Source: Bacillota bacterium (GTDB lineage: Bacteria > Bacillota > JADQBR01). From it: DNA of 64,000 nt. The stretch lies in contig JADQBR010000119.1 of the NCBI GenBank assembly GCA_016278515.1, forward strand, positions 1-64,000, given 5' to 3'. The notes under the pieces are model-generated. The model saw only the letters and a list, made by a program, of their open reading frames with translations. It did not search any database and was not told where the DNA came from. The position numbers and the translations under genes are program-made. This document shows, in pieces, positions 1,834 to 14,484 of the stretch (position 1 is the stretch's first letter; every line of letters starts with the position of its first letter).

Positions 1834-3117
1834 CTATCTAGTTTGGTCACCCCTTGCAATCAACAACCTATTAATCCTGGTGGCACCCATATCTTTTACC
1901 TGAAAACTATACCCTTCCCATTGGACTGTTTCTCCTTCTTCCGGCAGATGCCCTAATCTCTCCAGCATAAAACCAGCAATAGTTTCATACTCCGAATTAG
2001 ATTTAACTCTTTTTAAATCTAACGCTTCAAAGACATCATGGATCGGCGTGTCCCCTTCTACTAACCAGTCCCCGTGAGGGGTTTTGCGAATCAGTCTTTC
2101 TTCTTGAATTACATCGCCGATTATTTCATCAACTAGATCCCCTTTTGTTACCAATCCTGCAGTACCCCCGTATTCGTCCACAACAATTGCCATCACTGAC
2201 CCTTTCATGCGGAATTCCTTTAGCAATGCTACCGTAGGCTTTGTTTCGGGAACAAACAGTACCGGACTCATAATTTCCGTAATTTTTTCTTCCTGGTTTA
2301 TCAATGCTTGGCTGACAATATCACGTAACCTGACTATACCCACGATGTCATCGTAGTCTTTTAGATAGACGGGAAAAGCAGAAAAATTTATATTACAGAT
2401 TTTGTCTAGTGCCTGCTTTACAGTATGAGAAACATGCAAATAGACAATTTCCGTTCGCGGTACCATCACTTGTCGAACAACTTGGTCACCAAAATTAAAA
2501 ACGCCTTCAATCATACTTTTTTCTTCGGCCGGTAACGTTCGGTGTTCTGCTATGTAAAAGCGAATTTCATCTTCAGTAACTTCTTTTAACGGTTGTTTCG
2601 GGTTCCCACCAAATATACGGACAATAAGATTAGTGGAAAAGGTTAAAAAACGGGTAATAGGCGATGTTACTTTGGCAATAAAATCTATGGGACGCGCTAC
2701 CTTTAGAGCAAGTTTTTCTGACCACTGCATTGCCAGCCTCTTTGGCGCCAATTCCCCAAAAATCAAGGTTATATAGGAAATTAGAATTGTTACAAAAAAT
2801 ACCCCTAACGTCTTGGATAATGCTGAGGGAAGGCCGATGCTAATTAATAATTGAGTCAGTCCTTTGGATAAACCTACGGCTGCAGTCGCACTAGCTAAAA
2901 AACCTGCGAAAGTAATGCCAACTTGTATTGTCGCAAGAAAAAGACTGGGATCGTCTATTAGTTTAAGGAGCACCGCAGCTGCTGTATTTCCTTCTTCTTT
3001 CAGTCTCTGAATTTTAACCCGCCGCGACGAAATGACGGCTATTTCGCTTGCCGCAAAAAACGCATTAAGCAAAACCAAAAATAGTATTAAAAGTATTCCG
3101 GCCCAATTGACCTGCAA
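1834..3117 (-). CDS. CNNM/CBS/CorC_HlyC family membrane protein
   Basis: Hemolysin-C/CorC family protein of about 427 residues. An N-terminal CNNM transmembrane domain (residues about 1-190, with LNAFFAASEIAV and FGELAPKR) is followed by two CBS domains (about 205-330, including VPRTEIVYL and DEYGGTAGLVT) and a C-terminal CorC_HlyC transporter-associated domain ending near the terminus. Such proteins are implicated in magnesium or sodium export and in divalent-metal homeostasis; the older name hemolysin is misleading. The start is probably TTG at 3117, six bases after GGGGAGG; the frame stays open five codons upstream. It appears monocistronic. Confidence 0.88.
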   Translation of the reverse strand: MQVNWAGILLILFLVLLNAFFAASEIAVISSRRVKIQRLKEEGNTAAAVLLKLIDDPSLFLATIQVGITFAGFLASATAAVGLSKGLTQLLISIGLPSALSKTLGVFFVTILISYITLIFGELAPKRLAMQWSEKLALKVARPIDFIAKVTSPITRFLTFSTNLIVRIFGGNPKQPLKEVTEDEIRFYIAEHRTLPAEEKSMIEGVFNFGDQVVRQVMVPRTEIVYLHVSHTVKQALDKICNINFSAFPVYLKDYDDIVGIVRLRDIVSQALINQEEKITEIMSPVLFVPETKPTVALLKEFRMKGSVMAIVVDEYGGTAGLVTKGDLVDEIIGDVIQEERLIRKTPHGDWLVEGDTPIHDVFEALDLKRVKSNSEYETIAGFMLERLGHLPEEGETVQWEGYSFQVKDMGATRINRLLIARGDQTR

Positions 3118-3265
3118 ACTAATCCTCCCCAAACTTCAAAAAAGAATGTCTTTTAATTATTTTTTCTCCAAATACCCTTACTAATATTCCAGCCATTGCA
3201 TATCATTTAATATTATTTGTCAGGCAACAATAATAGAGAACAATCAGAGGAGGTCAAATTTAAAA

Positions 3266-3463
3266 ATGAAAATAAAAACTAGATTGACTTTTCCAGCCTC
3301 AGATACCATGCCCGGCCCAGCCACCTACCAGGCAGAAGCGGAATTTGACGATGTTTCAGAAGAATTTATCCCTCTAGTCTATGTGGACGATATAGATGAT
3401 GAATTAGGAGCAGGAACTGCCAAGGATGTTTCTTCCACATCTTTGGTGCCGGAACACCCATAA
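3266..3463 (+). CDS. Small acidic protein of unknown function
   Basis: A 65-residue open frame with a strong ribosome binding site (AGAGGAGG, about 12 bases before the ATG), closed by a hairpin terminator immediately after the stop. The protein is acidic, with an EAEFDDVSEEF stretch and DDIDDE, and has no cysteines, signal peptide or membrane segment. I do not recognise the family. The good translation signal and the terminator argue that it is a real gene. Confidence 0.6.
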   Translation: MKIKTRLTFPASDTMPGPATYQAEAEFDDVSEEFIPLVYVDDIDDELGAGTAKDVSSTSLVPEHP

Positions 3464-3464
3464 A

Positions 3465-3494
3465 AAATCCTCACCTTTAAATAGGTGAGGATTT
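3465..3494. terminator. Bidirectional terminator between the small acidic gene and the aminotransferase
   Basis: A 12-bp inverted repeat (AAATCCTCACCT and AGGTGAGGATTT) with a 6-base loop. On the minus strand it is followed by a run of six T, making a strong intrinsic terminator for the aminotransferase gene that ends at 3498. It can also stop the converging plus-strand small gene. Confidence 0.85.
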
Positions 3495-3497
3495 GGT

Positions 3498-4685
3498 CTA
3501 AACTGCGTTTCTACTTTTCATAAGAAATCTTTGCATTTTTTCTATAGCCTTATAAATGTTTTCTTGGGAGTTAGCATAGGAAAAACGCAAATACCCTTTG
3601 CCTGCTTCCCCGAAGGCAGCACCGTCTAGTACGGCCACGCCCGCCTCTTCCAGCAAGCGGTCTGCTAAGACCCTACTGTCATAGCCGGTTGCCTTTACAT
3701 TGGCGAATGCATAAAATGCCCCTCTGGGTGTAGGACAGCTAAAACCCGGTACATTGCGCAAGCCTTCAATCAAAATGTCTCTTCTTTCCCTAAATTCTCC
3801 AACCATCTTTTCCAAACTACTTTGTCCTTCTTTTAATGCTTGTATACCAGCCAACTGAACAAAGGGCGGGGTACAAGAATAAATGTTAACTGCCAATTTG
3901 TTAAATTTCTCTACCAGTCTTTCAGGCATTATCCCGTATCCCAATCGCCACCCGGTCATAGCATAGCTTTTAGAAAACCCGTCGATAATAACTGCCTGGT
4001 CTCTTATTTCCGGAAAAGCCGCAATAGATACCGGCTGTTCACCGTAATATATGTCGCTATAAATTTCATCAGATATTACGAGAATATTTTTATCTTTCAA
4101 CATTGATACTATAGCAGCCATATCCTGCCGCGGAATTATCCCACCGGTGGGGTTATGGGGTGAATTTAAAATAATTGCTTTGGTCTTAGGTGTAATAGCA
4201 CGTTCCAATAAATCTAAATCTATAGTAAAATTATCATCTTTTTCTATTATAGGAACGAGTTTAGGCACGCCTCTAGAATATCTAACCACTGACTCATATA
4301 TTGGAAAGCCCGGATCAGGAATAATTACTTCGTCGCCAGGGTTAACACATGCTTGCACAGCAAAAAACAAAAGCGGCTTTGCACCAGGCGTCACTATTAC
4401 CTCCTCCGGAGAAAATCTTACTCCTCTTCTTAACCCCGCATGTAAAGCAATATATTCTCTCACTTCAGGCAGTCCAGTCGGAGAACAGTATCTTGTATAC
4501 CCATCATTCAATGCCCTTATAGCAGCTTCTTTTACTATATCCGTCGTATTAAAGTCCGGTTCTCCTATCTCCAAATGAATTACTTCCATGCCTTGAGCCT
4601 CTAAACGATTTGCTTTCTCCAACACCGCAAAGGCCGATTCTGTATTTAAAAATTCTACTCGCTCCGAAAATTGTACGTCTCTCAA
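3498..4685 (-). CDS. Class I/II pyridoxal-phosphate aminotransferase (aspartate aminotransferase-like)
   Basis: A 395-residue fold-type I aminotransferase. The PLP lysine is in GFSKSYAMTGWRLGY (about K239). Other family marks are EIGEPDF, YCSPTGLPEVR near residue 70, NSPHNPTG near 175 and SDEIYSD near 206. Subfamily members use aspartate, alanine or aromatic amino acids, so the exact substrate cannot be read from sequence. The start is TTG at 4685, eight bases after GGGGAGG. It is monocistronic, closed by the hairpin at 3465-3494. Confidence 0.9.
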   Translation of the reverse strand: MRDVQFSERVEFLNTESAFAVLEKANRLEAQGMEVIHLEIGEPDFNTTDIVKEAAIRALNDGYTRYCSPTGLPEVREYIALHAGLRRGVRFSPEEVIVTPGAKPLLFFAVQACVNPGDEVIIPDPGFPIYESVVRYSRGVPKLVPIIEKDDNFTIDLDLLERAITPKTKAIILNSPHNPTGGIIPRQDMAAIVSMLKDKNILVISDEIYSDIYYGEQPVSIAAFPEIRDQAVIIDGFSKSYAMTGWRLGYGIMPERLVEKFNKLAVNIYSCTPPFVQLAGIQALKEGQSSLEKMVGEFRERRDILIEGLRNVPGFSCPTPRGAFYAFANVKATGYDSRVLADRLLEEAGVAVLDGAAFGEAGKGYLRFSYANSQENIYKAIEKMQRFLMKSRNAV

Positions 4686-4853
4686 CTCAGTGTCCTCCCC
4701 GTATGGATAATTGTTCCCTCTGTAAATACAAATATATTTAACATTTTAGGTCTTTAGTGCATGTTTGTCAACCATCTTTTCTTTATAATTTCATAAAGAG
4801 CAAATTACAGAGGTGCTTAGTTTTGGAAATAATCTCATAGGGAAGCAATATTA

Positions 4854-4906
4854 AAAAACGCTGCTTAGACATACTACTATGTTACTTAAGCAGGAACGAC
4901 GTTTTT
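4854..4906. terminator. Terminator downstream of the potassium channel gene
   Basis: A long imperfect hairpin: outer arms AAAAAACG and CGTTTTT, inner arms CTGCTTA and TTAAGCAG. It lies between the aminotransferase and channel genes, with T-rich tracts on both sides. It most likely ends the minus-strand channel transcript. The rest of 4686-4971 holds nothing else I recognise. Confidence 0.65.
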
Positions 4907-4971
4907 GATTATTCAGTATAGTTCTGGTATTCATAGGCTGTAAGATAAGATAGCATTAATGCCTGCTTTCA

Positions 4972-5994
4972 TTAGAAAAGGGCTGTCTCTGCAATATAAA
5001 TCAAGCGGTCACCGGCCTGCACAACTAAATCGTCCGGCGGATTGGTATGAACTTCATCAGCATGATAAATGCCAATCAATATGCCGTTTCGCTCTCTGAT
5101 TACCCGTGCTGCCGCTACAAAAGTCTGGCCCCCCATGTCGTAGGGTACTAAGCTTTCGTAAACCTCATTACCAAATTTATTTGTAACCAACTCCCGAATA
5201 AGCCTGCTGCCGCCGCTGTAAAGACCTGCCCGTACTATTAAGCTGCTAACCAGTTCACCGGAAGAAATAATCTCATCTGCACCAGCTCGTTGGAAATGGG
5301 AAATGTTTTTGGGGTTCAGGACCTCCGCAATTATTTTCGCCTCTGGATTTAAATGACGTACTGCCAAGGTAGTTAGGGCAGAGTGAGAATCCGCTAAAGA
5401 TTCGTCCACAGAGCTTTCCGCCAACACTATCACTAGCCGCGCATGCTGCGCGTTGGCCTTTTTTAAGTCATCTTCATCAGTGCTTGAGCCCTTTACAAAA
5501 TGTATCCTACTACCGGGAATAGGATTTTCCTCCCGCTCTGCCAGCAGTACAACTTTCGCTGTCGGTTCATCTTTTAAAAGTTCTTCCACAATGGCATGAG
5601 TTTTATGACTATAATCACATATTACATAATGGTTACGATAGTTTGCCGGCATTAACCCGCGCCCCCTTTTCAAAATATCTTCTAACAACGACCCTGCCAA
5701 ATAACCGAAGGTACCAATGCCTGCTACCATTACCACCAGCGCGATAGCTCTGCCGCCAAAGCTAAGGGGGAATTTATCCCCATAGCCCACGGTAGTAATG
5801 GTTACCAGCGCCCACCAGACACCGTCACCAAAGGTATGAAACTGATCATTACCTCGTTCAAAATATATGATTGAAGCAGCACCTAATAGTACTACAGTCA
5901 TCAGCACTATGATGGATTTACCGTAACGTGTACGCCAATGACCGAAAATATTTAAGCGTCTAAATATAGTTATAAAGAATGACAATCTACTCAC
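4972..5994 (-). CDS. Two-TM potassium channel with RCK (TrkA-N) domain
   Basis: A 340-residue Kch/MthK-like protein. Two membrane helices (about 26-46 and 83-105) flank a pore loop with the selectivity filter TTVGYGD (residues about 67-73). A cytoplasmic TrkA-N/RCK domain starts near residue 120 with YVICDYS, and a TrkA-C-like segment lies at the C-terminus (DDLVVQAGDRLIYIAE). The first RCK loop reads CDYSHK rather than a classical GxGxxG nucleotide motif, so ligand binding may differ. The start is GTG at 5994 or TTG at 5985, which sits better behind AAGGGGTG. It follows the membrane aminopropyltransferase-like gene by 16 bp, so the two are probably co-transcribed. Confidence 0.9.
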   Translation of the reverse strand: MSRLSFFITIFRRLNIFGHWRTRYGKSIIVLMTVVLLGAASIIYFERGNDQFHTFGDGVWWALVTITTVGYGDKFPLSFGGRAIALVVMVAGIGTFGYLAGSLLEDILKRGRGLMPANYRNHYVICDYSHKTHAIVEELLKDEPTAKVVLLAEREENPIPGSRIHFVKGSSTDEDDLKKANAQHARLVIVLAESSVDESLADSHSALTTLAVRHLNPEAKIIAEVLNPKNISHFQRAGADEIISSGELVSSLIVRAGLYSGGSRLIRELVTNKFGNEVYESLVPYDMGGQTFVAAARVIRERNGILIGIYHADEVHTNPPDDLVVQAGDRLIYIAETALF

Positions 5995-6010
5995 CCCTTA
6001 CTGCATTGCC

Positions 6011-7555
6011 TTACCAGTTTTCCCAAGCCTGTTGATAGAGATCTATTATTACAGGATGTATCAAAGTATTAACAACTTCATCAGTAGATTCTGTTTCATC
6101 TTCAGGGAAAACAAACATACCAGGCAGCATGTCCTGATTCAAATATCTTGTCGCTACCTCCACCTTTACCCTGCTTGTATCGACGGCGTTATCCGAGGCC
6201 AAGGTAAAGCCCCACTCCCCAAAGCTGGGTACATAGGTATGATATGGTACCACATCCAGTCCCGCCGCTTCTACTGTATTAACTATGGCCCAAAAAGCCT
6301 CATTGGCATAGTAAGGTGAAGTCGACTGAACAGCTACAGCTCCGCCCTTAGCTAAATGCCGTCTCACCAATGTATAGAATTCCCGGGTATAAAGTTTTGC
6401 TAAAGATTCGTTGTTAGGGTCCGGCAAATCAATAATGATCACACCGTATAAACCACTGGCCTGCTCTAGAAATTTGTACGCATCTTGATTAACTACCTGC
6501 ACCCTAGGGTCGTCCAAACTACCTTGGTTAAGCCGGGAAATGACCGGGTTAGTACGGGATAATTCTACCACTGCAGGGTCTAAATCCACTAAGGTTACTT
6601 TCTTTACATCAGAGTATTTAAAAATCTCCCGCAGTGCCAAGCCATCACCGCCACCTAATATCAGCACATCTTCCCGATTGGCCGTCGAACTCATGGCAGG
6701 GTGTACCAATGCTTCATGATAACGGTATTCGTCTATGGACGAAAATTGAATATTACCATTGAGAAACATCCGTAAGTCTTCACCCTGCTTGGTAAGATTG
6801 ATATGCTGAAAAACACTCTGTTCCTGATAGACTATCCGATCATTATAAAGCTGCTGCTCCAAACCTGCCACAGCTCTTTCACCGAAAGCCAATCCCAGCA
6901 TCAGTAAGAGAACAATGACTGCTACCAGTCCCTTTGTAACCCGGCGAAAGCGTGTTGACAATTCAGTTTCAAAAAGCTTCATGGCTAGGATCACAACGCT
7001 TGCATTAATCAAGCCCATCAACATTGTCCCTTGCACCAGTCCTACGGCTTTCATCAGGTAAACGTAGAGGATTACTGCCGGTACCGCACCTAAAAAATCA
7101 AACAGTGTAACCCTGGCCACCAAATCTCCAAAAGACTCTCCCGCTTTCCGCAAGATATGCATAAAAAGGGGTACCTGAAATCCCAGAATAAATCCGTTAA
7201 CAGAGATATAGCCTAAAATAACCACCTGGGCAAAACCCATATAAACGTTCAGTGCATAAAGAATAAGGGTGGAAAAGCCGCCGACAAAGGCAATCACCAA
7301 TTCATTAATTACTATCATTCTTTCGTGCTGTATCACATACCTTGAGCAATAACCGCCTATTCCCATAGAAACCATCATGGCAGTAATAGTCAAGGCCCAC
7401 TGAATTCTACCGTCACCCAGCAGATAACTGGCCATGGCCCCCAGAAAATATTCGTAACTCATGGCACTGGTCGAAATAGTCAACAAAGTAAGGATTACCA
7501 ACATTGGTGTGTTTTTCTGTATATAGTTTTGTATTTTTTGATTTAAGACCGCCAA
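6011..7555 (-). CDS. Membrane-bound spermidine synthase-like protein
   Basis: About 514 residues. The N-terminal half has multiple hydrophobic helices (roughly residues 15-220) and the C-terminal half is a spermidine synthase/aminopropyltransferase Rossmann domain, with LILGGGDGLALREI, VTLVDLDPAVVEL and IIIDLPDPNN. The GGGDG loop and acidic residues fit binding of decarboxylated S-adenosylmethionine, but the polyamine substrate of these membrane forms is not established. The start is probably TTG at 7555, five bases after AGGAGGA; the frame stays open to 7600. It sits directly upstream of the RCK channel and downstream, across a terminator, from the DUF4178-PspA-DUF4247-DUF350 genes, a grouping that recurs in Bacilli. 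Confidence 0.88.
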   Translation of the reverse strand: MAVLNQKIQNYIQKNTPMLVILTLLTISTSAMSYEYFLGAMASYLLGDGRIQWALTITAMMVSMGIGGYCSRYVIQHERMIVINELVIAFVGGFSTLILYALNVYMGFAQVVILGYISVNGFILGFQVPLFMHILRKAGESFGDLVARVTLFDFLGAVPAVILYVYLMKAVGLVQGTMLMGLINASVVILAMKLFETELSTRFRRVTKGLVAVIVLLLMLGLAFGERAVAGLEQQLYNDRIVYQEQSVFQHINLTKQGEDLRMFLNGNIQFSSIDEYRYHEALVHPAMSSTANREDVLILGGGDGLALREIFKYSDVKKVTLVDLDPAVVELSRTNPVISRLNQGSLDDPRVQVVNQDAYKFLEQASGLYGVIIIDLPDPNNESLAKLYTREFYTLVRRHLAKGGAVAVQSTSPYYANEAFWAIVNTVEAAGLDVVPYHTYVPSFGEWGFTLASDNAVDTSRVKVEVATRYLNQDMLPGMFVFPEDETESTDEVVNTLIHPVIIDLYQQAWENW

Positions 7556-7676
7556 GCGAATCCTCCTCACCAAATATAAGTACCCCATTAATTGTAACAC
7601 TCTGATGACAATCTTCCACTATCTAATAACTGCCAAAAAGAAACATTGGCGTATGCCGTCTCTTTCGGTTTAGAAA

Positions 7677-7753
7677 AACTTGGCTTGCGCCAAGCCTTGG
7701 CGCAGGCGGAAGCCTTAGTTGCACTTATGCAATAAGAAAATTATACTTTCTGA
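7677..7753. repeat. Hairpin repeat, copy A
   Basis: An intergenic element beginning ACTTGGCTTGCGCC. Outer arms GGCTT and AAGCC enclose an inner hairpin (TGCGCCAA and TTGGCGCA), then come CCTTAGTTGCACTTATGC and a tail with GAAAATTATACTTTCTGA. The same architecture occurs at 36264-36345 and 44373-44428, and the tail alone at 31535-31547. The inner arm sequence differs between copies while its pairing is kept in A and B. Confidence 0.75.
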
Positions 7754-7762
7754 CATGTCAAG

Positions 7763-7790
7763 AAAAAACCCTTCAAACGAAGGGTTTTTT
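7763..7790. terminator. Terminator after the DUF350 gene
   Basis: A perfect 12-bp stem (AAAAAACCCTTC and GAAGGGTTTTTT) with a 4-base loop, ending two bases before the DUF350 stop codon. It closes the DUF4178-PspA-DUF4247-DUF350 operon and separates it from the downstream aminopropyltransferase-channel pair. Confidence 0.85.
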
Positions 7791-7792
7791 AA

Positions 7793-8191
7793 TCATGTAA
7801 GCGCTCCACTGACCACAAGGGCTACAGCAATAAACAGCCCTGCTATTTTATATCCCACCAAAAGGTTATGGTCGTCAATTTCCTGGGATATTTTTTCAGG
7901 AGTAATCAAATCATAAAGGAAATATGAAACCAACATAAGTACAAATCCCAAACCACTGTATATTAAGGCATTAACCAGGCTTTCACTATGTGCCATGGCA
8001 TTATAAATAATTATACCAATACCAATGAGCAGTCCGCCTAATACTGCCCCCAATGCACCGTTTTTCTCCTTAATCTCCTGACTCAGTTTATAAGGAGTTA
8101 CCAAATCAAAAATTTTAATGGCCACAACCATTACTACAAAAAATATGGCCCACCAGATTATCGTGTCTACATAAGGGTTTATTAAAACCAT
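7793..8191 (-). CDS. DUF350 membrane protein
   Basis: A 132-residue integral membrane protein with four hydrophobic helices in two tandem halves. Each half ends in a conserved DUF350 motif: DLVTPYKLSQEIKEKN near residue 29 and DLITPEKISQEIDDHN near 92. Family members (YjfL-like) sit in PspA-type clusters in several bacteria, but their biochemical role is not known. It is the last gene of the operon, 25 bp after the DUF4247 lipoprotein gene, with a terminator directly downstream. Start at ATG 8191. Confidence 0.85.
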   Translation of the reverse strand: MVLINPYVDTIIWWAIFFVVMVVAIKIFDLVTPYKLSQEIKEKNGALGAVLGGLLIGIGIIIYNAMAHSESLVNALIYSGLGFVLMLVSYFLYDLITPEKISQEIDDHNLLVGYKIAGLFIAVALVVSGALT

Positions 8192-8216
8192 ACTTACACT
8201 CCTCTCCTAAATTTTT

Positions 8217-8762
8217 CTACTTACCGCCAAAAATCCCGCCGCCCCGAGTATTACTCGAACCCACCGAACCATCCCGGACGGTTTTCCCGTAAGAAGGCAC
8301 TGTACTACGACCGGTATACTGCGGAATATTTGAGTTCGTATAGCTACGCGGCCCATTAAAAATATTTCCGATTATCGTAGCTGTCAAATACCCTCGAAAA
8401 AAACCACCGGAAGAGTAATGATCGCGAATATACTGCTGAGAGGCTACCTCAGCCATTGTTTGACCTTCTTGGGAGTAGATGTCAACTACCAACTTAGGAT
8501 AGACCAATACTCTGCGGTCTTCAGCCGTACCCTTTTCAGTCATGGACTGGGGCGGATACTTAGCCGCTAAAAAATCTGCTGCCTCGTCAACTGAAACCGG
8601 CATCTGATACACCTTAGCCGCATCATTGGTCCCGTAACGGCTCTGCTGCACATCCACCAACGGGTAATCCTTGTCCAGGTAACTCTCTACTGTTGCTGCA
8701 GAACATCCTGCCAATATAAAAAGGCTAATGGTAATGAATAATATTACGAACCAACGCTTCAT
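8217..8762 (-). CDS. DUF4247-type lipoprotein
   Basis: A 181-residue secreted lipoprotein. The signal peptide ends in the lipobox LAGC (cysteine 20). The mature part has DKDYPLVDVQ and AAKVYQMPVSVDEAADFL, then a segment (VLVYPKLVVDIYSQEG) and a glycine/serine-rich tail ending GGGIFGGK. The pattern matches DUF4247 proteins found beside PspA, DUF350 and DUF4178 in Bacilli. Function is unknown; the lipid anchor places it on the outer face of the membrane. ATG at 8762 follows AGGAGG. Confidence 0.78.
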   Translation of the reverse strand: MKRWFVILFITISLFILAGCSAATVESYLDKDYPLVDVQQSRYGTNDAAKVYQMPVSVDEAADFLAAKYPPQSMTEKGTAEDRRVLVYPKLVVDIYSQEGQTMAEVASQQYIRDHYSSGGFFRGYLTATIIGNIFNGPRSYTNSNIPQYTGRSTVPSYGKTVRDGSVGSSNTRGGGIFGGK

Positions 8763-8780
8763 TTTTAAAATCCTCCTGTA

Positions 8781-8808
8781 AAAAGAGGAGAAGTATTACT
8801 CCTCTTTT
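8781..8808. terminator. Hairpin over the pspA stop codon
   Basis: Arms AAAAGAGGAG and CTCCTCTTTT with an 8-base loop; the pspA stop lies in the stem-loop. On the minus strand it is followed by five T. It may be a leaky terminator that lowers expression of the lipoprotein and DUF350 genes relative to PspA. Confidence 0.6.
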
Positions 8809-9470
8809 TTGCTCTTAAGCTTCGCCTTTAATGCGGCCAATTCATTATCTACGTCAGACCCGCCTAGGCTGTCCAATTCTTTATCCAAGCTGGTTGAACC
8901 GGAACGCAGTTCATTAGATGCTTCTGCTTCACTTTCAAGCGTCATTACTTTTTCTTCCATCTTATCAAAACCCTTACGTGCGCTACCGCTGCCGATACCG
9001 CTAAAGGCTTGATTAATGTTTTTCTGTGCTTTAGCTGCTTCTGCACGGGCCTGCAGGGTCTGCTTCTTACCCTTTAATGTCTCATATTCATCCTTCATCT
9101 GCTGCAGTTGACCCTTCAACTTGTCAGCGTTTTCCTTAGCTACCTGCCATTGGGCCTGCAAATCATCTGCTTTAGACTGGTGGCGTTTCTTATCTTCCAA
9201 TGCCTTACGGGCCAAGTCCTCGTTTTCCTGTTCCAAGGCCTGCATAGCTTGAGTCTGCCTCTTCCCCACCATTTCCTCCGCCTCGGTCAATTGACGGTGC
9301 ATCTTTTTTTCCAGGGCAATCTGTTTAGCCACTGATTTCTCTGCCTCAACAATATCCTCTTCCATATCTGCCATGTACTGTTCCAACATTTTCACCGGGT
9401 CCTCAGCCTTATCCAACAGATGATTAAGCTGTGACATACTGATGTCTCTCATTCGTGAAAATAATCCCAT
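8796..9470 (-). CDS. pspA: PspA/IM30 family envelope-stress protein
   Basis: A 224-residue PspA/Vipp1 family protein. These ESCRT-III-like coiled-coil proteins assemble on the inner membrane and help keep it intact under stress. Seen here: the amphipathic start MGLFSRMRDI, the EDPVKMLEQYMADMEEDI segment (about 22-39), and a nearly uninterrupted helical, charged coiled coil to about residue 170 (EETLKGKKQTLQARAEAAKAQ region). The C-terminus is the usual acidic region ending KLKSKKEE. ATG at 9470 follows AAGGAGG. It follows DUF4178 by 38 bp, in an operon with DUF4247 and DUF350. Confidence 0.92.
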   Translation of the reverse strand: MGLFSRMRDISMSQLNHLLDKAEDPVKMLEQYMADMEEDIVEAEKSVAKQIALEKKMHRQLTEAEEMVGKRQTQAMQALEQENEDLARKALEDKKRHQSKADDLQAQWQVAKENADKLKGQLQQMKDEYETLKGKKQTLQARAEAAKAQKNINQAFSGIGSGSARKGFDKMEEKVMTLESEAEASNELRSGSTSLDKELDSLGGSDVDNELAALKAKLKSKKEE

Positions 9471-9508
9471 TAAAAAACCTCCTTATTGATAATATAATAA
9501 CTATTCCA

Positions 9509-10018
9509 TTAGCTTCCTGCCATAAAGCTTACTTCACGCGGATCTATTTCATAGCCGTAGCTAAATTCAAAATCCCCATCCCACTCTTCTATGGAAATAA
9601 ATCTTTCATCCTCCTCATCACAGTAATCCCAGTAGCGAACATTGTTCCCAACTCTGGCACCAACCTGACCTTCTACCACAGTAATACGGGCAGTACTCGT
9701 TTCATCCAGTTCAAAGTCAATACCATCATATGTGATTAGCTGCTGAGGCTTTTCCAACGGCATTTTAATCTTTTCGAAAATACCCATGTACAACTCGTCA
9801 TCCTGTTCCACGGAAAGCCAGATATGCTTATCATCAGACTCAAGGTGATAGTCCCGCCAGACCCAACCTTCGTCATTGTATTCCAGTACACCAATAACCA
9901 CGTAATCCTCCAGGTCATAGGAGACAATGTCACCTACCTGTAAATTTAATGCATTGCGTTTAACAATCTGCGGTTTTTCTTTTCCGCCGCTGCCAAACAT
10001 TTTTTTCAAAAAGCCCAC
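9509..10018 (-). CDS. DUF4178 domain protein
   Basis: About 169 residues, first gene of the PspA operon. A basic N-terminus (FLKKMFGSGGKEKPQ) is followed by the DUF4178 fold with LQVGDIVSYDLEDYVVIG, WVWRDYHLESDDKHIWLSVE and a second half around ISIEEWDGDFEFSYG. No catalytic motif or membrane helix is visible. The GTG at 10018, six bases after AAGGGGAG, is the best-placed start; an ATG at 10024 abuts that site. In Bacilli and other phyla this domain is found next to PspA, DUF4247, DUF350 and aminopropyltransferase-like genes; function unknown. Confidence 0.8.
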   Translation of the reverse strand: MGFLKKMFGSGGKEKPQIVKRNALNLQVGDIVSYDLEDYVVIGVLEYNDEGWVWRDYHLESDDKHIWLSVEQDDELYMGIFEKIKMPLEKPQQLITYDGIDFELDETSTARITVVEGQVGARVGNNVRYWDYCDEEDERFISIEEWDGDFEFSYGYEIDPREVSFMAGS

Positions 10019-10053
10019 ACGCATCTCCCCTTATTCCCAACCGAACTATTTAC

Positions 10054-10059
10054 ATTTTA
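10054..10059 (-). promoter_or_regulatory. Candidate extended -10 of the PspA operon
   Basis: On the minus strand TATGGTAAAAT gives a TG-extended -10 (TAAAAT) 36 bp before the DUF4178 start. No good -35 is seen, in keeping with an extended -10 promoter or an alternative factor. The rest of 10060-10323 is AT rich and holds no recognised gene. Confidence 0.35.
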
Positions 10060-10323
10060 CCATATCCAAGTGTAGATTTGTTAAGCAAATCAATCATAAC
10101 ACTCTCCACTTTTTTACACAATTAAATATTCCACATTTCATTAAATTCTCCTGCATTGATTGCAGCTATAGTTCTGGTAGTAATTTCCAAGGATTGGCTA
10201 TGAGCAGCACATCTACTGGTTATATTTAGGATCGTTATCTATCTTGACCGTTAAAAACAATGATAATTAACTCCCCTTAGGAAATATTAGTTATAAGGGA
10301 AATTCTAAAGGAGTGAATGAAGA

Positions 10324-11301
10324 GTGGTTTTTACAATAAAAACGAAAAAAACAGAAGCCAAGGAAAGTTTAATTGATGGAAGAGAAGCCTTTAATCTTTG
10401 GGATATTCTCCGTTCTAAATATGTAGTATTAGAGCGAATAATGCTATGGGAAAAATGCGCTAAAGATACTGATTTAGTAGTATTAATACAATTACTTCGA
10501 CGGACCTTACAGGAAAATGTTAATATTTTGGAAAAACAAATGTTTAAGTACTCGGTGAAATCTCCTGACCAAAACAAATCTGGAGCAAACTTCCCTGGCA
10601 GCTCCCAGGCGATTACGGACCAACTAATCGCAGGTGATATACTGATATATATGCAGGAGCATGTTGAAAACTTATTAAAAGGCTTTACGACATCAATGAC
10701 TAATGACAATATACGAGGACTGTTTCAAAAACTTACTGTGAAAACTATCGACCAGCTAGAAAAGCTCATTCAATACTTAAAACTTAAAGGTTGGATAGAA
10801 ACTCCGCCGCTTTATCAGCATGTGGACCCAAACATTAATGAAAGTTTAACCACTGTAGAAGCTACTTCTTTGTGGGACCATTTAACTCTACGGTACGATA
10901 ATCTACAAACCACTGAAATTTATATGGTTTTTGTGCATGATGGTGACTTCAAGGCCACTCTTGAAAAGGGAATTATAACTTTAAAAAAACAAGTAAATAT
11001 CCTAGAAAAAGAACTTCAATATTTCGGCATACCTATGCCCAAAAGACCATCCAAGGTAACTATGAAACCTAATAATACGGAAATCCTATTTGATGACCAT
11101 ATGTACCGAACGCTGCTAATTGGATTACGGACAGTGGCTGTTTTGCATGCGAGAACTATCAAGGAAATAACATACAATGATAGAATTAGAGGTGTTTTTC
11201 GCAAGATGGCTACTGACGAGTTGAGTTATATTGATAAATATTTTTTGTATGGTAAAACCAAAGGTTGGTTACATACTATTCCAAAGTATGGCAGGTACTA
11301 A
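10324..11301 (+). CDS. Protein with two DUF3231 domains
   Basis: A 325-residue helical protein made of two homologous halves of about 155 residues. Each half starts with an AxxLWDxL motif (AFNLWDILRSKY, then ATSLWDHLTLRY), has a long helix with VNILEK (QENVNILEKQM, KKQVNILEKEL), and ends with NDxIRGxFxK, YxKxKGWxxTxPxY. This matches DUF3231 proteins, ferritin-like four-helix bundles common in spore formers and linked to the spore coat in some. The start is GTG at 10324, ten bases after AAGGAG. It is monocistronic and convergent with the RND operon; there is no strong terminator in the 63-bp gap. Confidence 0.82.
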   Translation: MVFTIKTKKTEAKESLIDGREAFNLWDILRSKYVVLERIMLWEKCAKDTDLVVLIQLLRRTLQENVNILEKQMFKYSVKSPDQNKSGANFPGSSQAITDQLIAGDILIYMQEHVENLLKGFTTSMTNDNIRGLFQKLTVKTIDQLEKLIQYLKLKGWIETPPLYQHVDPNINESLTTVEATSLWDHLTLRYDNLQTTEIYMVFVHDGDFKATLEKGIITLKKQVNILEKELQYFGIPMPKRPSKVTMKPNNTEILFDDHMYRTLLIGLRTVAVLHARTIKEITYNDRIRGVFRKMATDELSYIDKYFLYGKTKGWLHTIPKYGRY

Positions 11302-11364: not shown

Positions 11365-14300
11365 CTAACCTAAGCAGAAACCCTGTTTTTTTCCAGAAAA
11401 CAGCCTGCTTTTTGCTTTCTCTACCAAGATATATACCACAGGAATTATAATTAAGGTTAAAAAGGTGGCAGCCAAAATACCGCCAATGACAGTAACCGCT
11501 AGTGGAGAAAAACGTTCCGACCCCAGGGCCAGTTCCGAGGCCAGCGGTGTCATGCCAGCGACATCAGATAGCGCAGTCATCATAATAGGTCTAAAACGAA
11601 TGTCAACCGCTTCATGCACAGCCTTATTAATAGGCAGACTGTCCTGCCTACCTAAGTTAATCTGATCAATCAAAAGAATGGCATTGTTGACAACCGTCCC
11701 GGCCAATAGGATAAAGCCAAGCATCACCGGCATGGAAATTACCTTGCCAGATAACTTTAGTGCAATTAAGACCCCAATTAGCACCAAGGGAATCGCTGCC
11801 ATAATTGTCAATGGATGTGTCGCTGACCGAAATTGTACCATCAACAACAAGAAAACACTAACCAAGGCAATGAGCATAGCAAAGGCTAAATCATTTCGTG
11901 AGTTTAACAATTCGGCCTGGTCACCAACAACAGCTAATTCATAACCTTGAGGAATGGTTATCTCCTTCAGTACCGATTCAACATCAGAAACTACATGACT
12001 TAAAGGCCGCTGATGAGTAAAGCCTAATAAATCAATTGTATAATTGAGATTTTCTCTGGTGACCAAGTTAGCTCTGGTAACTGTTTTTATTTCTGCTATA
12101 TCCCGCAAAGGCACCGTTACCCCATAGCTTGTAGTAATAACCGTCTCACCCAACAAATCTCTGTTTTTCCGTTTTTCATCCGGGTACTGTACAAAAATCC
12201 TTAAGTCGTCAGAATCATTTCGCTTTAGTTCAGAAGCAGAGACACCCTCAATGCTTTGAAAGACCTGATTTGCCACCGCCGCGGCATGTAGCCCAAGATC
12301 TATCATCCGAGATTGATCTAACTGCAGCACCAAAGTTTCTGTATCTCGCGACCAACTGTTATAAAGGTTGACTACACCGGGCACAGCATTAACCTGTTCT
12401 TTAATATCTGAAGCAACCTGTTCCAGCACTCTTTGGTCAGGCCCCGAAATTCTTATATCAACAGGTGCTCTTGAGGTAGCAACTGCAGTACCGCCTTCTT
12501 CTTTTACCACAAAAATTTTAATGCCAGGTATTCTGGCAATTTCTTGGCGTATATCCTCTTCTATCTGCCATATTGTACGGTCCCGTTCTTTTCTTGAGGT
12601 GAGAGTAACAGCAATATTACCCTGATTAACTCCCATAGCACCGTTTTCTCCCATATAAGTAGTGCCTGTTTCGTAACCTATCTGACTATAATAGTCTGTG
12701 ACTTCGTTATTTCGATCCAACAGTGTTTCTACCTGCCTAACTATTTGCTTGGTCTTATTTAAGTTATAGCCAGACTCCGTCTCTATCCAAATGGAAAAAT
12801 TACCGGTATCCATTTTAGGCAATACGTCCATACCTATACCTGTCAGGACTTTCGCTGATAAAACCAGCAATAGCCCTACAATAACCAAAGTGCTTTTGGG
12901 CCTAGCTATGGCTTTATCTAGGATACTTAAATAAAGAATCCTTAACATATTTATACCCATTGCAAATGGTTTCCCAATTCTTCTAGCCCATTTGTCTCCA
13001 GTTGCAAAGTTGATTTTTTCTGTTAACACTAAAAAGAGAGGTATGACGGAAAGGGAAACAATCAAAGACGAACCAATACTAAAAATAATAGTTTTCGCTA
13101 ACGGTCCAAATACTTTTCCTACGAATCCTTCAATAAATATCAGCGGTAGCATAACCACTAAAGTAGTAGCAGTTCCCGCCATAACGGACAGAGTTATTTC
13201 ACTAGCTCCGTCAATAGCGGCCTGTTTTAGACTCTTACCCAGTTCTTCATTATGTCTGCTGATATTTTCCACTACCACAATAGCATTATCTACCACTATA
13301 CCTATGCTTAAAATAATAGCCGATAACGTAATCAAATCCAACTGTAGATTAAAGATGTTCATCAAAGCAAGCGTCAGCATATAAGATAATGGTATTGATA
13401 TAGACACCGCTAGCGCTTTATGAAAACTCAACACAAAAAGCATTATTATCAGTACTGTCAAAGAAATTGCGATACCTATACTACTAGTCATGTTACTAAT
13501 AACTTGGGTAGTAAATTTAGAATCGTCATCTGCTATAGCAATATTTACATTATTAAAGCGGTTCGCTACCTTATCTAGTTCCTGGCGCACGTTTTCAATA
13601 ACCTCGACTGTATTTGCGCCATCTTTTTTTATAATTTGGACAGCTATAGTTTCACTACTTTGATAGCGAAAGCTGCTGGTTGCTTCTTGGCTGGTCTGTT
13701 CAATCTGGGCAATTTCCCCGAGAAAAATGGGCCTGCCATTGACTTTAGATACCATAATGTTCTTAAGTTGGCTTTGATTCGTAATGTCATTATTGATTCT
13801 GATATTAAATTGCTGCTTATCATTTTTTATCTTACCACCTGGAAAAGATAAATTGTTTTTGGAGATAGCTTGAATGACTTGTTGGGTGCTTAGGTTGTAT
13901 TGGCGTAATTTTTCCGGCAGAATGTTTACAGACACCTGTTCCTCATAGCCGCCGAAGGCATCTACCGCAGCCACTCCTGGTACCAGCTGCAGCATGTTTT
14001 TTATTTCATTACCCGCCAGGCTTCTTACTTCCATTAAACTTAACTGCTCTGAAGATAATGCCAGCGTCATAATAGGCTTATCACTCACATCAACCTCCAG
14101 GACCTGGGGCTCTTGAATATTATTCGGGAGCCTATTTCTAATACGGCTAATAACATTTTGAATATCCACTGTGCCTGACGAACTGTCCGTACCGTATGCA
14201 AATTCTACAGTTACTAAGGATAGTCCATCTTGGGAAGTGGACTTAACGGTCTCTACCCCGCTGACAGTAGTTACTTCTTCTTCTATAACTTCGGTGACTT

Positions 14301-14484
14301 CAGTAGACACGTCCTGGGCAGAAGCACCCGGGTAAGCCGTAACAACGTTTACAATGGGCGGTGCCGTATTGGGAAACAATTCTATAGGAATATTCATTTT
14401 GGCTAAAATACCGAAAAATACTATAATCACTGCAAAAGCAATCATTGTATATTTACGGTTAACGACGTATTCTTGTAGTTTCAT
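11365..14484 (-). CDS. RND-family efflux permease (HAE/SwrC-like)
   Basis: A 1039-residue RND pump of near-full family length with twelve expected membrane helices and two large extracytoplasmic loops. Marks include the N-terminal helix FAVIIVFFGILAKMNIP, the pore-domain PGASAQDVSTEV segment, and in TM4 the proton-relay region GIVVDNAIVVVEN with adjacent aspartates. The second half repeats the pattern (GTVVNNAILLIDQ). In Gram-positive bacteria such pumps (B. subtilis SwrC/YerP is the best studied) export lipopeptides, fatty acids or antiseptics. It starts directly after the stop of the adaptor gene (TAAATG), third in a TetR-adaptor-pump operon. Confidence 0.93.
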   Translation of the reverse strand: MKLQEYVVNRKYTMIAFAVIIVFFGILAKMNIPIELFPNTAPPIVNVVTAYPGASAQDVSTEVTEVIEEEVTTVSGVETVKSTSQDGLSLVTVEFAYGTDSSSGTVDIQNVISRIRNRLPNNIQEPQVLEVDVSDKPIMTLALSSEQLSLMEVRSLAGNEIKNMLQLVPGVAAVDAFGGYEEQVSVNILPEKLRQYNLSTQQVIQAISKNNLSFPGGKIKNDKQQFNIRINNDITNQSQLKNIMVSKVNGRPIFLGEIAQIEQTSQEATSSFRYQSSETIAVQIIKKDGANTVEVIENVRQELDKVANRFNNVNIAIADDDSKFTTQVISNMTSSIGIAISLTVLIIMLFVLSFHKALAVSISIPLSYMLTLALMNIFNLQLDLITLSAIILSIGIVVDNAIVVVENISRHNEELGKSLKQAAIDGASEITLSVMAGTATTLVVMLPLIFIEGFVGKVFGPLAKTIIFSIGSSLIVSLSVIPLFLVLTEKINFATGDKWARRIGKPFAMGINMLRILYLSILDKAIARPKSTLVIVGLLLVLSAKVLTGIGMDVLPKMDTGNFSIWIETESGYNLNKTKQIVRQVETLLDRNNEVTDYYSQIGYETGTTYMGENGAMGVNQGNIAVTLTSRKERDRTIWQIEEDIRQEIARIPGIKIFVVKEEGGTAVATSRAPVDIRISGPDQRVLEQVASDIKEQVNAVPGVVNLYNSWSRDTETLVLQLDQSRMIDLGLHAAAVANQVFQSIEGVSASELKRNDSDDLRIFVQYPDEKRKNRDLLGETVITTSYGVTVPLRDIAEIKTVTRANLVTRENLNYTIDLLGFTHQRPLSHVVSDVESVLKEITIPQGYELAVVGDQAELLNSRNDLAFAMLIALVSVFLLLMVQFRSATHPLTIMAAIPLVLIGVLIALKLSGKVISMPVMLGFILLAGTVVNNAILLIDQINLGRQDSLPINKAVHEAVDIRFRPIMMTALSDVAGMTPLASELALGSERFSPLAVTVIGGILAATFLTLIIIPVVYILVEKAKSRLFSGKKQGFCLG

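Follow-up and report, generated by a model that had tools for sequence, protein, structure and literature searches.

What does a membrane-embedded relative of spermidine synthase use as its acceptor when its gene stands among genes for proteins of the cell envelope? This question is raised by a row of six open reading frames (ORFs) on the minus strand at positions 4972-10024 of a 64,000-nucleotide stretch of DNA from a Bacillota bacterium (contig JADQBR010000119.1, assembly GCA_016278515.1), which as a whole is called the window below. In reading order, the genes encode a DUF4178 protein, PspA, a DUF4247 lipoprotein, DUF350, a membrane SpeE protein (memSpeE), and an RCK potassium channel. A first-pass annotation had described this row as an envelope module of six linked genes; the ORFs and the high Pfam and NCBIfam scores bear out both the positions and the families it gave, and the membrane-protein content fits an envelope role.

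The DUF4247 lipoprotein carries a Gly/Ser/Arg-rich tail whose last residue is lysine, and across genomes this ending is strongly associated with memSpeE. On balance, we favour the explanation that the module builds a polyamine-tailed membrane protein, with memSpeE aminopropylating the terminal lysine of the tail outside the cell. The parts of the module are as follows.

9509-10024, minus strand: DUF4178 protein of 171 residues, first in the set; cytosolic all-beta domain (Pfam DUF4178, 118.5 bits)
8796-9470, minus strand: PspA/IM30 of 224 residues (Pfam PspA_IM30, PF04012, 176.8 bits over residues 1-216)
8217-8762, minus strand: DUF4247 lipoprotein of 181 residues with lipobox LAGC and signal sequence MKRWFVILFITISLFILAGC (Pfam, 37.2 bits; cut-off 27)
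8220-8315, minus strand: C-terminal tail of the DUF4247 lipoprotein, ...TGRSTVPSYGKTVRDGSVGSSNTRGGGIFGGK-COOH, proposed as lysine acceptor from its conservation beside memSpeE
7793-8191, minus strand: DUF350 (YjfL-type) membrane protein of 132 residues with a repeated TPxK(L/I)SQEI motif (Pfam, 113.8 bits)
6011-7555 (listed ORF 6011-7600), minus strand: memSpeE of 514 residues from a revised TTG start (Pfam Spermine_synth, 141.3 bits)
6011-6853, minus strand: aminopropyltransferase domain of memSpeE, predicted to be extracytoplasmic from a positive-inside count
4972-5994, minus strand: MthK-like potassium channel with two transmembrane (TM) helices and an RCK domain, an optional member (Pfam Ion_trans_2 and TrkA_N)

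The lysine-ended tail beside memSpeE

The window holds the proposed pair of a membrane-anchored protein ending in Gly-Lys or His-Lys ([GH]K) and an adjoining memSpeE, with the lipoprotein tail (...TVRDGSVGSSNTRGGGIFGGK) finishing in RGGGIFGGK. When the C-termini of 44 DUF4247 matches were compared, 41 were found to have a glycine-rich end, usually (R)GGG-x-GK, with lysine as the final residue. One of the three exceptions is truncated by the end of its contig, and the other two come from loci that lack memSpeE. Genomes not seen before yielded three additional DUF4247 proteins linked to memSpeE, all ending in GK (as does a repeat copy of a known one), as well as two new DUF4247 proteins without memSpeE that end in RRR. 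Overall, the GK end is present in 44 of 44 intact DUF4247-type proteins adjoining memSpeE, and the lysine end is missing from all four DUF4247 proteins that lack this neighbour (RRR or GRR), yet their loci retain PspA, DUF350, and DUF4178. The lysine tail is a strong regularity, and it is new as far as a literature search shows, which returned no paper that links these families to protein aminopropylation or to a lysine at the C-terminus. A sortase-type sorting signal was considered as the identity of the tail and dropped, since the C-terminal TM helix of such signals is missing.

Equivalent [GH]K tails occur in other phyla on small single-TM proteins, on fusions of DUF4178 with a TM helix, and on larger lipoproteins. 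In Acidobacteria, Gemmatimonadetes, Proteobacteria, Bacteroidetes, and Chloroflexi, the carrier is a single-TM protein of about 46-100 residues with a tail ending in GK or HK, and proteins of this kind were often missed under an ORF limit of 60 residues. A Terrisporobacter DUF4178-TM protein without a DUF4247 domain (L033) ends in GGGTSFGK. At L033, L034, L046, L058, L071, L076, L100, and L103, DUF4178 is naturally fused to a TM helix and a lysine-ended tail, which connects the inner-face domain and the tail within one protein. Three further loci (L087, L105, and L110, two of them from Gastranaerophilales) encode PspA, a TM-anchored DUF4178 protein, and, as a product of its own, a small lysine-tailed TM protein.

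For counting, a tail was defined by a hydrophobic anchor, a [GHR]K end, last residues rich in Gly, Ser, His, Tyr, or Arg, and a location no more than 3.5 kb from memSpeE. Such a tail is present at 71 of the 87 discovery loci and at 30 of 39 unseen loci, the latter drawn from Bacillota, Pseudomonadota, Bacteroidota, and Chloroflexota plus one prophage-edge contig. The definition was fixed after the unseen Bacillota and Pseudomonadota loci had been eyed and before those from Bacteroidota and Chloroflexota were read, and therefore only the last two groups (17 of 21 loci) are fully blind. Replacing the lysine in the definition by any other final residue leaves at most six discovery loci and four unseen loci. 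A relaxed filter regains the unseen loci L130 and L163, plus several discovery loci. In control DNA, the definition was matched once in 495 kb distal to memSpeE and not at all in the remaining DNA of the window (19-64 kb), and none of 28 loci with soluble SpeE has a lysine tail. Three of the 105 counted tail ORFs (L043_109, L048_76, and L094_100) look like chance matches; each of their loci also has a convincing tail. Further upstream within the tail, an SVRxGS-like motif (S-V-R-x-G-S and variants) occurs in 67% of tails versus 15% of shuffled ones, a figure that is descriptive because the motif was picked after the tails had been seen.

Gene families, co-inheritance and related systems

The individual families are assigned with confidence. 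PspA has a full-length PspA/IM30/Vipp1 domain, its closest solved relatives are Vipp1/PspA chains (E about 1e-38), and a search of the source genome revealed this single copy. memSpeE scores 555 bits against the NCBIfam polyamine aminopropyltransferase model PRK03612, for which the curated cut-off is 472. The channel is of the MthK type, with a two-TM pore, a TVGYGD filter, an RCK domain, and a match to MthK at 4.9e-29. The AlphaFold model of the DUF4178 protein (pLDDT 91, about 11 strands) is confidently all-beta; a fold search of this model against the PDB gave no match at E≤0.001, and the family profile matches PDB sequences mainly in its zinc-ribbon part. For DUF350 and DUF4247, a sequence search of the PDB gave no convincing solved relative.

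The gene grouping recurs far above chance. Among 199 evenly drawn Bacillota genomes, DUF4247 is present in nine and memSpeE scores over its cut-off in seven, and all seven memSpeE-bearing genomes, which span six bacterial families, have an adjoining DUF4247 gene. Only one of 14 control genomes, that of Corynebacterium glutamicum, carries DUF4247, and it is also the only one with memSpeE over the cut-off. In a scan of named genomes, 80 loci with memSpeE were found, spread over many phyla. In Bacilli, the order DUF4178-PspA-DUF4247-DUF350-memSpeE is nearly constant. Outside Bacilli, memSpeE is typically accompanied by SpeD, two zinc-ribbon DUF4178 proteins (one of them with a TM helix), DUF350, and a flavin amine oxidase; several of these loci also encode a zinc-ribbon protein of the band-7 type, and most lack PspA. 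Because the DUF4178-tail fusions led an iterated DUF4178 profile to pick up DUF4247 proteins as well, labels were assigned by best score and then checked with Pfam.

These data uphold the view of the first-pass annotation that the row is a conserved system rather than a chance cluster, widespread in Bacilli. The conserved set is smaller than the six genes it proposed, as five form the core, from DUF4178 to memSpeE. The channel lies 3ˊ of memSpeE in a minority of loci, is absent from most, and was consequently dropped as a core member.

Outside chromosomes, none of the actinobacterial plasmids scanned carries memSpeE, and a scan of viral contigs returned mostly soluble SpeE. One memSpeE gene (L134, IMGVR_UViG_2855763111_000001) is located at the edge of a contig predicted to be viral, probably in host DNA that flanks a prophage. 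At locus L014 (G000:C156:41471-41845), a second, divergent ORF resembling S-adenosylmethionine decarboxylase (open frame of 278 residues) is present besides a SpeD of 127 residues.

The cluster as such is not new, because a survey of PSP partners already describes, in its main-text passages, operons with PspA, a 7TM-spermidine synthase, DUF350, a novel lipoprotein, DUF4178, and CesT/Tir (Ravi et al. 2024, PMC11237479). As presented in those passages, group 2 of the PspA-CesT/Tir operons resembles the window in its 7TM-spermidine synthase, DUF350, DUF4178, PspA, and lipoprotein, whereas the window differs in having DUF4247 as the lipoprotein and a channel downstream. Its pspA is flanked by DUF4178 and DUF4247, and no CesT/Tir gene was detected among the window ORFs scanned, making the window a CesT/Tir-less variant of the described operons. 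Those main-text passages make no mention of a lysine tail or of an outward-facing enzyme. The same source also describes an actinobacterial DUF2617-DUF4247 group, which shares with the window DUF4247 and polyamine-enzyme neighbours (PMC11237479). As described there, this group differs by the lack of PspA and by DUF2617 in the place of DUF4178. We take the group to be Rv2598-Rv2601 on the map of M. tuberculosis, with DUF350 and memSpeE.

The grouping is also partly shared with E. coli, as had been suggested, namely with the operon yjfIJKLM-yjfC. E. coli YgiC and YjfC are peptide-spermidine ligases (Pederick 2023, as cited in PMC12270671 and PMC12568646), and RefSeq product names agree. Their genes adjoin DUF1190 genes, and the yjf operon, whose yjfIJKL genes are expressed much more strongly in heat-evolved strains (PMC12492005), also contains PspA and DUF350. 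DUF1190 proteins have a Gly/Ser/Arg tail that ends in GG in 10 of 14 sampled sequences. The yjf and ygiBC systems thus resemble the window in having an anchored or lipobox-like partner, a Gly/Ser/Arg tail with a conserved C-terminus, and polyamine chemistry on peptides. They differ in that an ATP-grasp ligase acting on a carboxylate accompanies the GG end, whereas an aminopropyltransferase accompanies the lysine end in the window, a pairing that by analogy would be expected if two pathways led to products of one kind. No ATP-grasp or DUF1190 match was found among the nine proteins scanned at 1834-11301. In 150 Pseudomonadota genomes, memSpeE and DUF1190 are each present in 14 with an overlap of zero, numbers that are too small to prove exclusion.

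Proposed aminopropylation of the tail and its alternatives

An AlphaFold model of memSpeE (pLDDT 93, pTM 0.86) predicts seven TM helices followed by a SpeE fold. The nearest solved relatives are the aminopropyltransferases of T. thermophilus and Pyrobaculum (1uir and 3anx matches), and among the fold matches listed all cover the SpeE domain and none the TM domain. The active-site residues of SpeE (GGGDG, DLD, DLPDP, and YHE) are invariant or nearly so in the memSpeE family. Thus, memSpeE has the catalytic fold and residues of soluble spermidine synthases and triamine/agmatine aminopropyltransferases (1uir, 3anx, and 7xif), and differs from soluble SpeE by the seven-TM domain in front and the lysine-tail partner nearby.

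The distribution of charges in memSpeE indicates which side of the membrane the enzyme probably faces. The N-terminal stretch and loops 2, 4, and 6 contain 11.0 lysine plus arginine residues versus 2.0 in loops 1, 3, and 5, and even loops exceed odd loops in all 87 homologues. This bias places the N-terminus inside, and therefore the SpeE domain is predicted to lie outside the cytoplasm, on the side of the tail. The tails of most DUF4247-sized proteins should likewise be outside, since 35 of the 45 tail proteins in the class of 110-260 residues have a lipobox. In other phyla, the flavin amine oxidases linked to memSpeE mostly carry a twin-arginine (Tat-type) N-terminus, which also points to chemistry outside the membrane. 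Tat-type oxidases of this kind adjoin memSpeE at L036, L060, L064, L089, L099, L108, and other loci (cluster c2), where they could turn the aminopropyl group into an aldehyde that cross-links.

In the mechanism that we propose, the DUF4247 lipoprotein would be exported and display its long, flexible Gly/Ser/Arg tail with the lysine last. memSpeE would then move an aminopropyl group from decarboxylated S-adenosylmethionine (SAM) to the side-chain amine of this lysine, whose -(CH2)4-NH2 would mimic the usual acceptor putrescine. The product would be N6-(3-aminopropyl)lysine, a spermidine-like cation tethered to the envelope, and the cationic tail might bind or cross-link anionic envelope material near the PspA-protected membrane. 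DUF4178 would be the inner-face part of the same assembly, as suggested by its combination with a zinc ribbon or a TM helix in other phyla, and DUF350 would be the membrane part of the assembly. Blocking of the channel by a tethered polyamine is possible, proximity being the one argument for it. Known modifications that place a polyamine-derived group on a protein lysine, by deoxyhypusine synthase and in silaffins, involve an unrelated enzyme family or organism, and neither concerns a C-terminal lysine of a bacterial envelope protein.

Alternatively, memSpeE might release spermidine or some other small polyamine as a free product at the membrane, with the unmodified lysine tail acting as a pseudo-substrate in the acceptor pocket or as a holder of the complex. 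The similarity of the SpeE domain to the T. thermophilus triamine/agmatine enzyme and the score above the polyamine aminopropyltransferase cut-off are in keeping with this, and the tail association by itself cannot separate a substrate from an inhibitor. However, the source genome already has a soluble speE beside speB elsewhere (along with two SpeD-type genes), the tail strictly conserves nothing but a free lysine at its end, as a substrate would require, and the E. coli counterparts act on peptides; we consider free polyamine synthesis unlikely. It is more improbable that the tail is modified as proposed by a cytosolic catalytic domain before export, which would mean that the charge topology is wrong or that TM7 does not span the membrane. 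Such an arrangement would suit the cytosolic location of decarboxylated SAM and the E. coli ligases YgiC and YjfC, which are cytosolic as far as known and act on peptides next to DUF1190 neighbours with a comparable tail. It conflicts with the fivefold excess of positive residues in the even loops, which holds in direction for every one of the 87 sequences, with the seven TM helices of the model, and with the Tat-type N-terminus of the co-encoded amine oxidase.

The first-pass annotation had proposed that the lipoprotein and DUF350 sense envelope damage, that PspA coats the membrane, and that the enzyme and channel tune polyamine and potassium flux. Although PspA and its neighbours are co-inherited and the related yjfIJKL operon responds in heat-adapted strains, most loci have no channel, most memSpeE loci beyond Bacilli have no PspA, and none of our results supports a sensing role. 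A flux mechanism also overlooks the constant partner of the enzyme, the membrane-anchored tail, and leaves its terminal lysine without a reason. Protein modification is therefore indicated rather than polyamine flux, and we regard the sensing and flux proposal as very improbable.

Several points weigh against aminopropylation of an exported tail, and the main one is the supply of decarboxylated SAM outside the cell, as an outward-facing memSpeE needs its donor exported from the cytosol where it is made. The topology is drawn from charge bias, sequence, and predicted secondary structure, and the reaction itself from sequence, models, and analogy. In a minority of the memSpeE loci, no tail was detected (for example, L120, L122, L125, L173, and L174). 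The four DUF4247 proteins without a lysine end represent one or two independent events only, because all come from one family (f23). Finally, the terminator after DUF350 described below weakens the view of the module as a single operon.

A solution to the donor problem might lie in the membrane domain of memSpeE, where E50 and E142 are near-invariant and D168 is invariant (the window protein has Q at 142). We conjecture from this conservation that the three positions could serve in a cation path for decarboxylated SAM. More tentatively than for the window itself, we suggest that memSpeE could be a widespread outward-facing protein aminopropyltransferase, in many phyla and probably in actinobacteria too, whose donor is carried across by its own seven-TM domain. 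memSpeE genes with DUF350, DUF4178, and DUF4247 neighbours span many phyla without a defined substrate, and the lysine tail offers a concrete, testable acceptor. If aminopropylation of the tail is correct, it would add a new type of protein modification, one that converges with the E. coli peptide-spermidine ligases on polyamine-tailed envelope proteins. Two types of PspA-linked operon, one with an aminopropyltransferase and the other with an ATP-grasp ligase, would then share the function of placing a polyamine on the end of an envelope protein. It would also explain why such genomes retain a second aminopropyltransferase, and would represent a new route for altering envelope charge under stress.

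Transcription layout and neighbouring genes

The memSpeE gene probably starts at the TTG codon at 7555 rather than at the GTG at 7600, because the longer frame contains a ribosome-binding site (GGTGAGGAGG) and, in the relative G080, the orthologue begins at the equivalent codon. Upstream of this start is the following element.

7761-7790 (read from 7790 to 7761), minus strand: intrinsic terminator that separates DUF350 from memSpeE and may act in both directions (RNA fold -17.9 kcal/mol, z -4.5)

A terminator 3ˊ of DUF350 is also kept in G080. Therefore, memSpeE and the channel may form a second or attenuated transcription unit, and may be expressed separately from the genes before them or at a lower level. 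Between this terminator and memSpeE, a second hairpin with a run of T nucleotides (GGCTTGGCGCAAGCC AAGTTTTTCT; 7682-7696, minus strand) is a possible extra attenuator.

A search of the source genome found no match to Omp85, which suggests a single-membrane cell. Near the module, the ORF at 11365-14484 on the minus strand encodes a large transporter that reads as an RND-type efflux pump, which is unusual for a cell of this kind. Directly adjoining the module and divergent from it, the ORF at 10324-11301 on the plus strand encodes a spore-coat-like protein of the DUF3231/CotF type.

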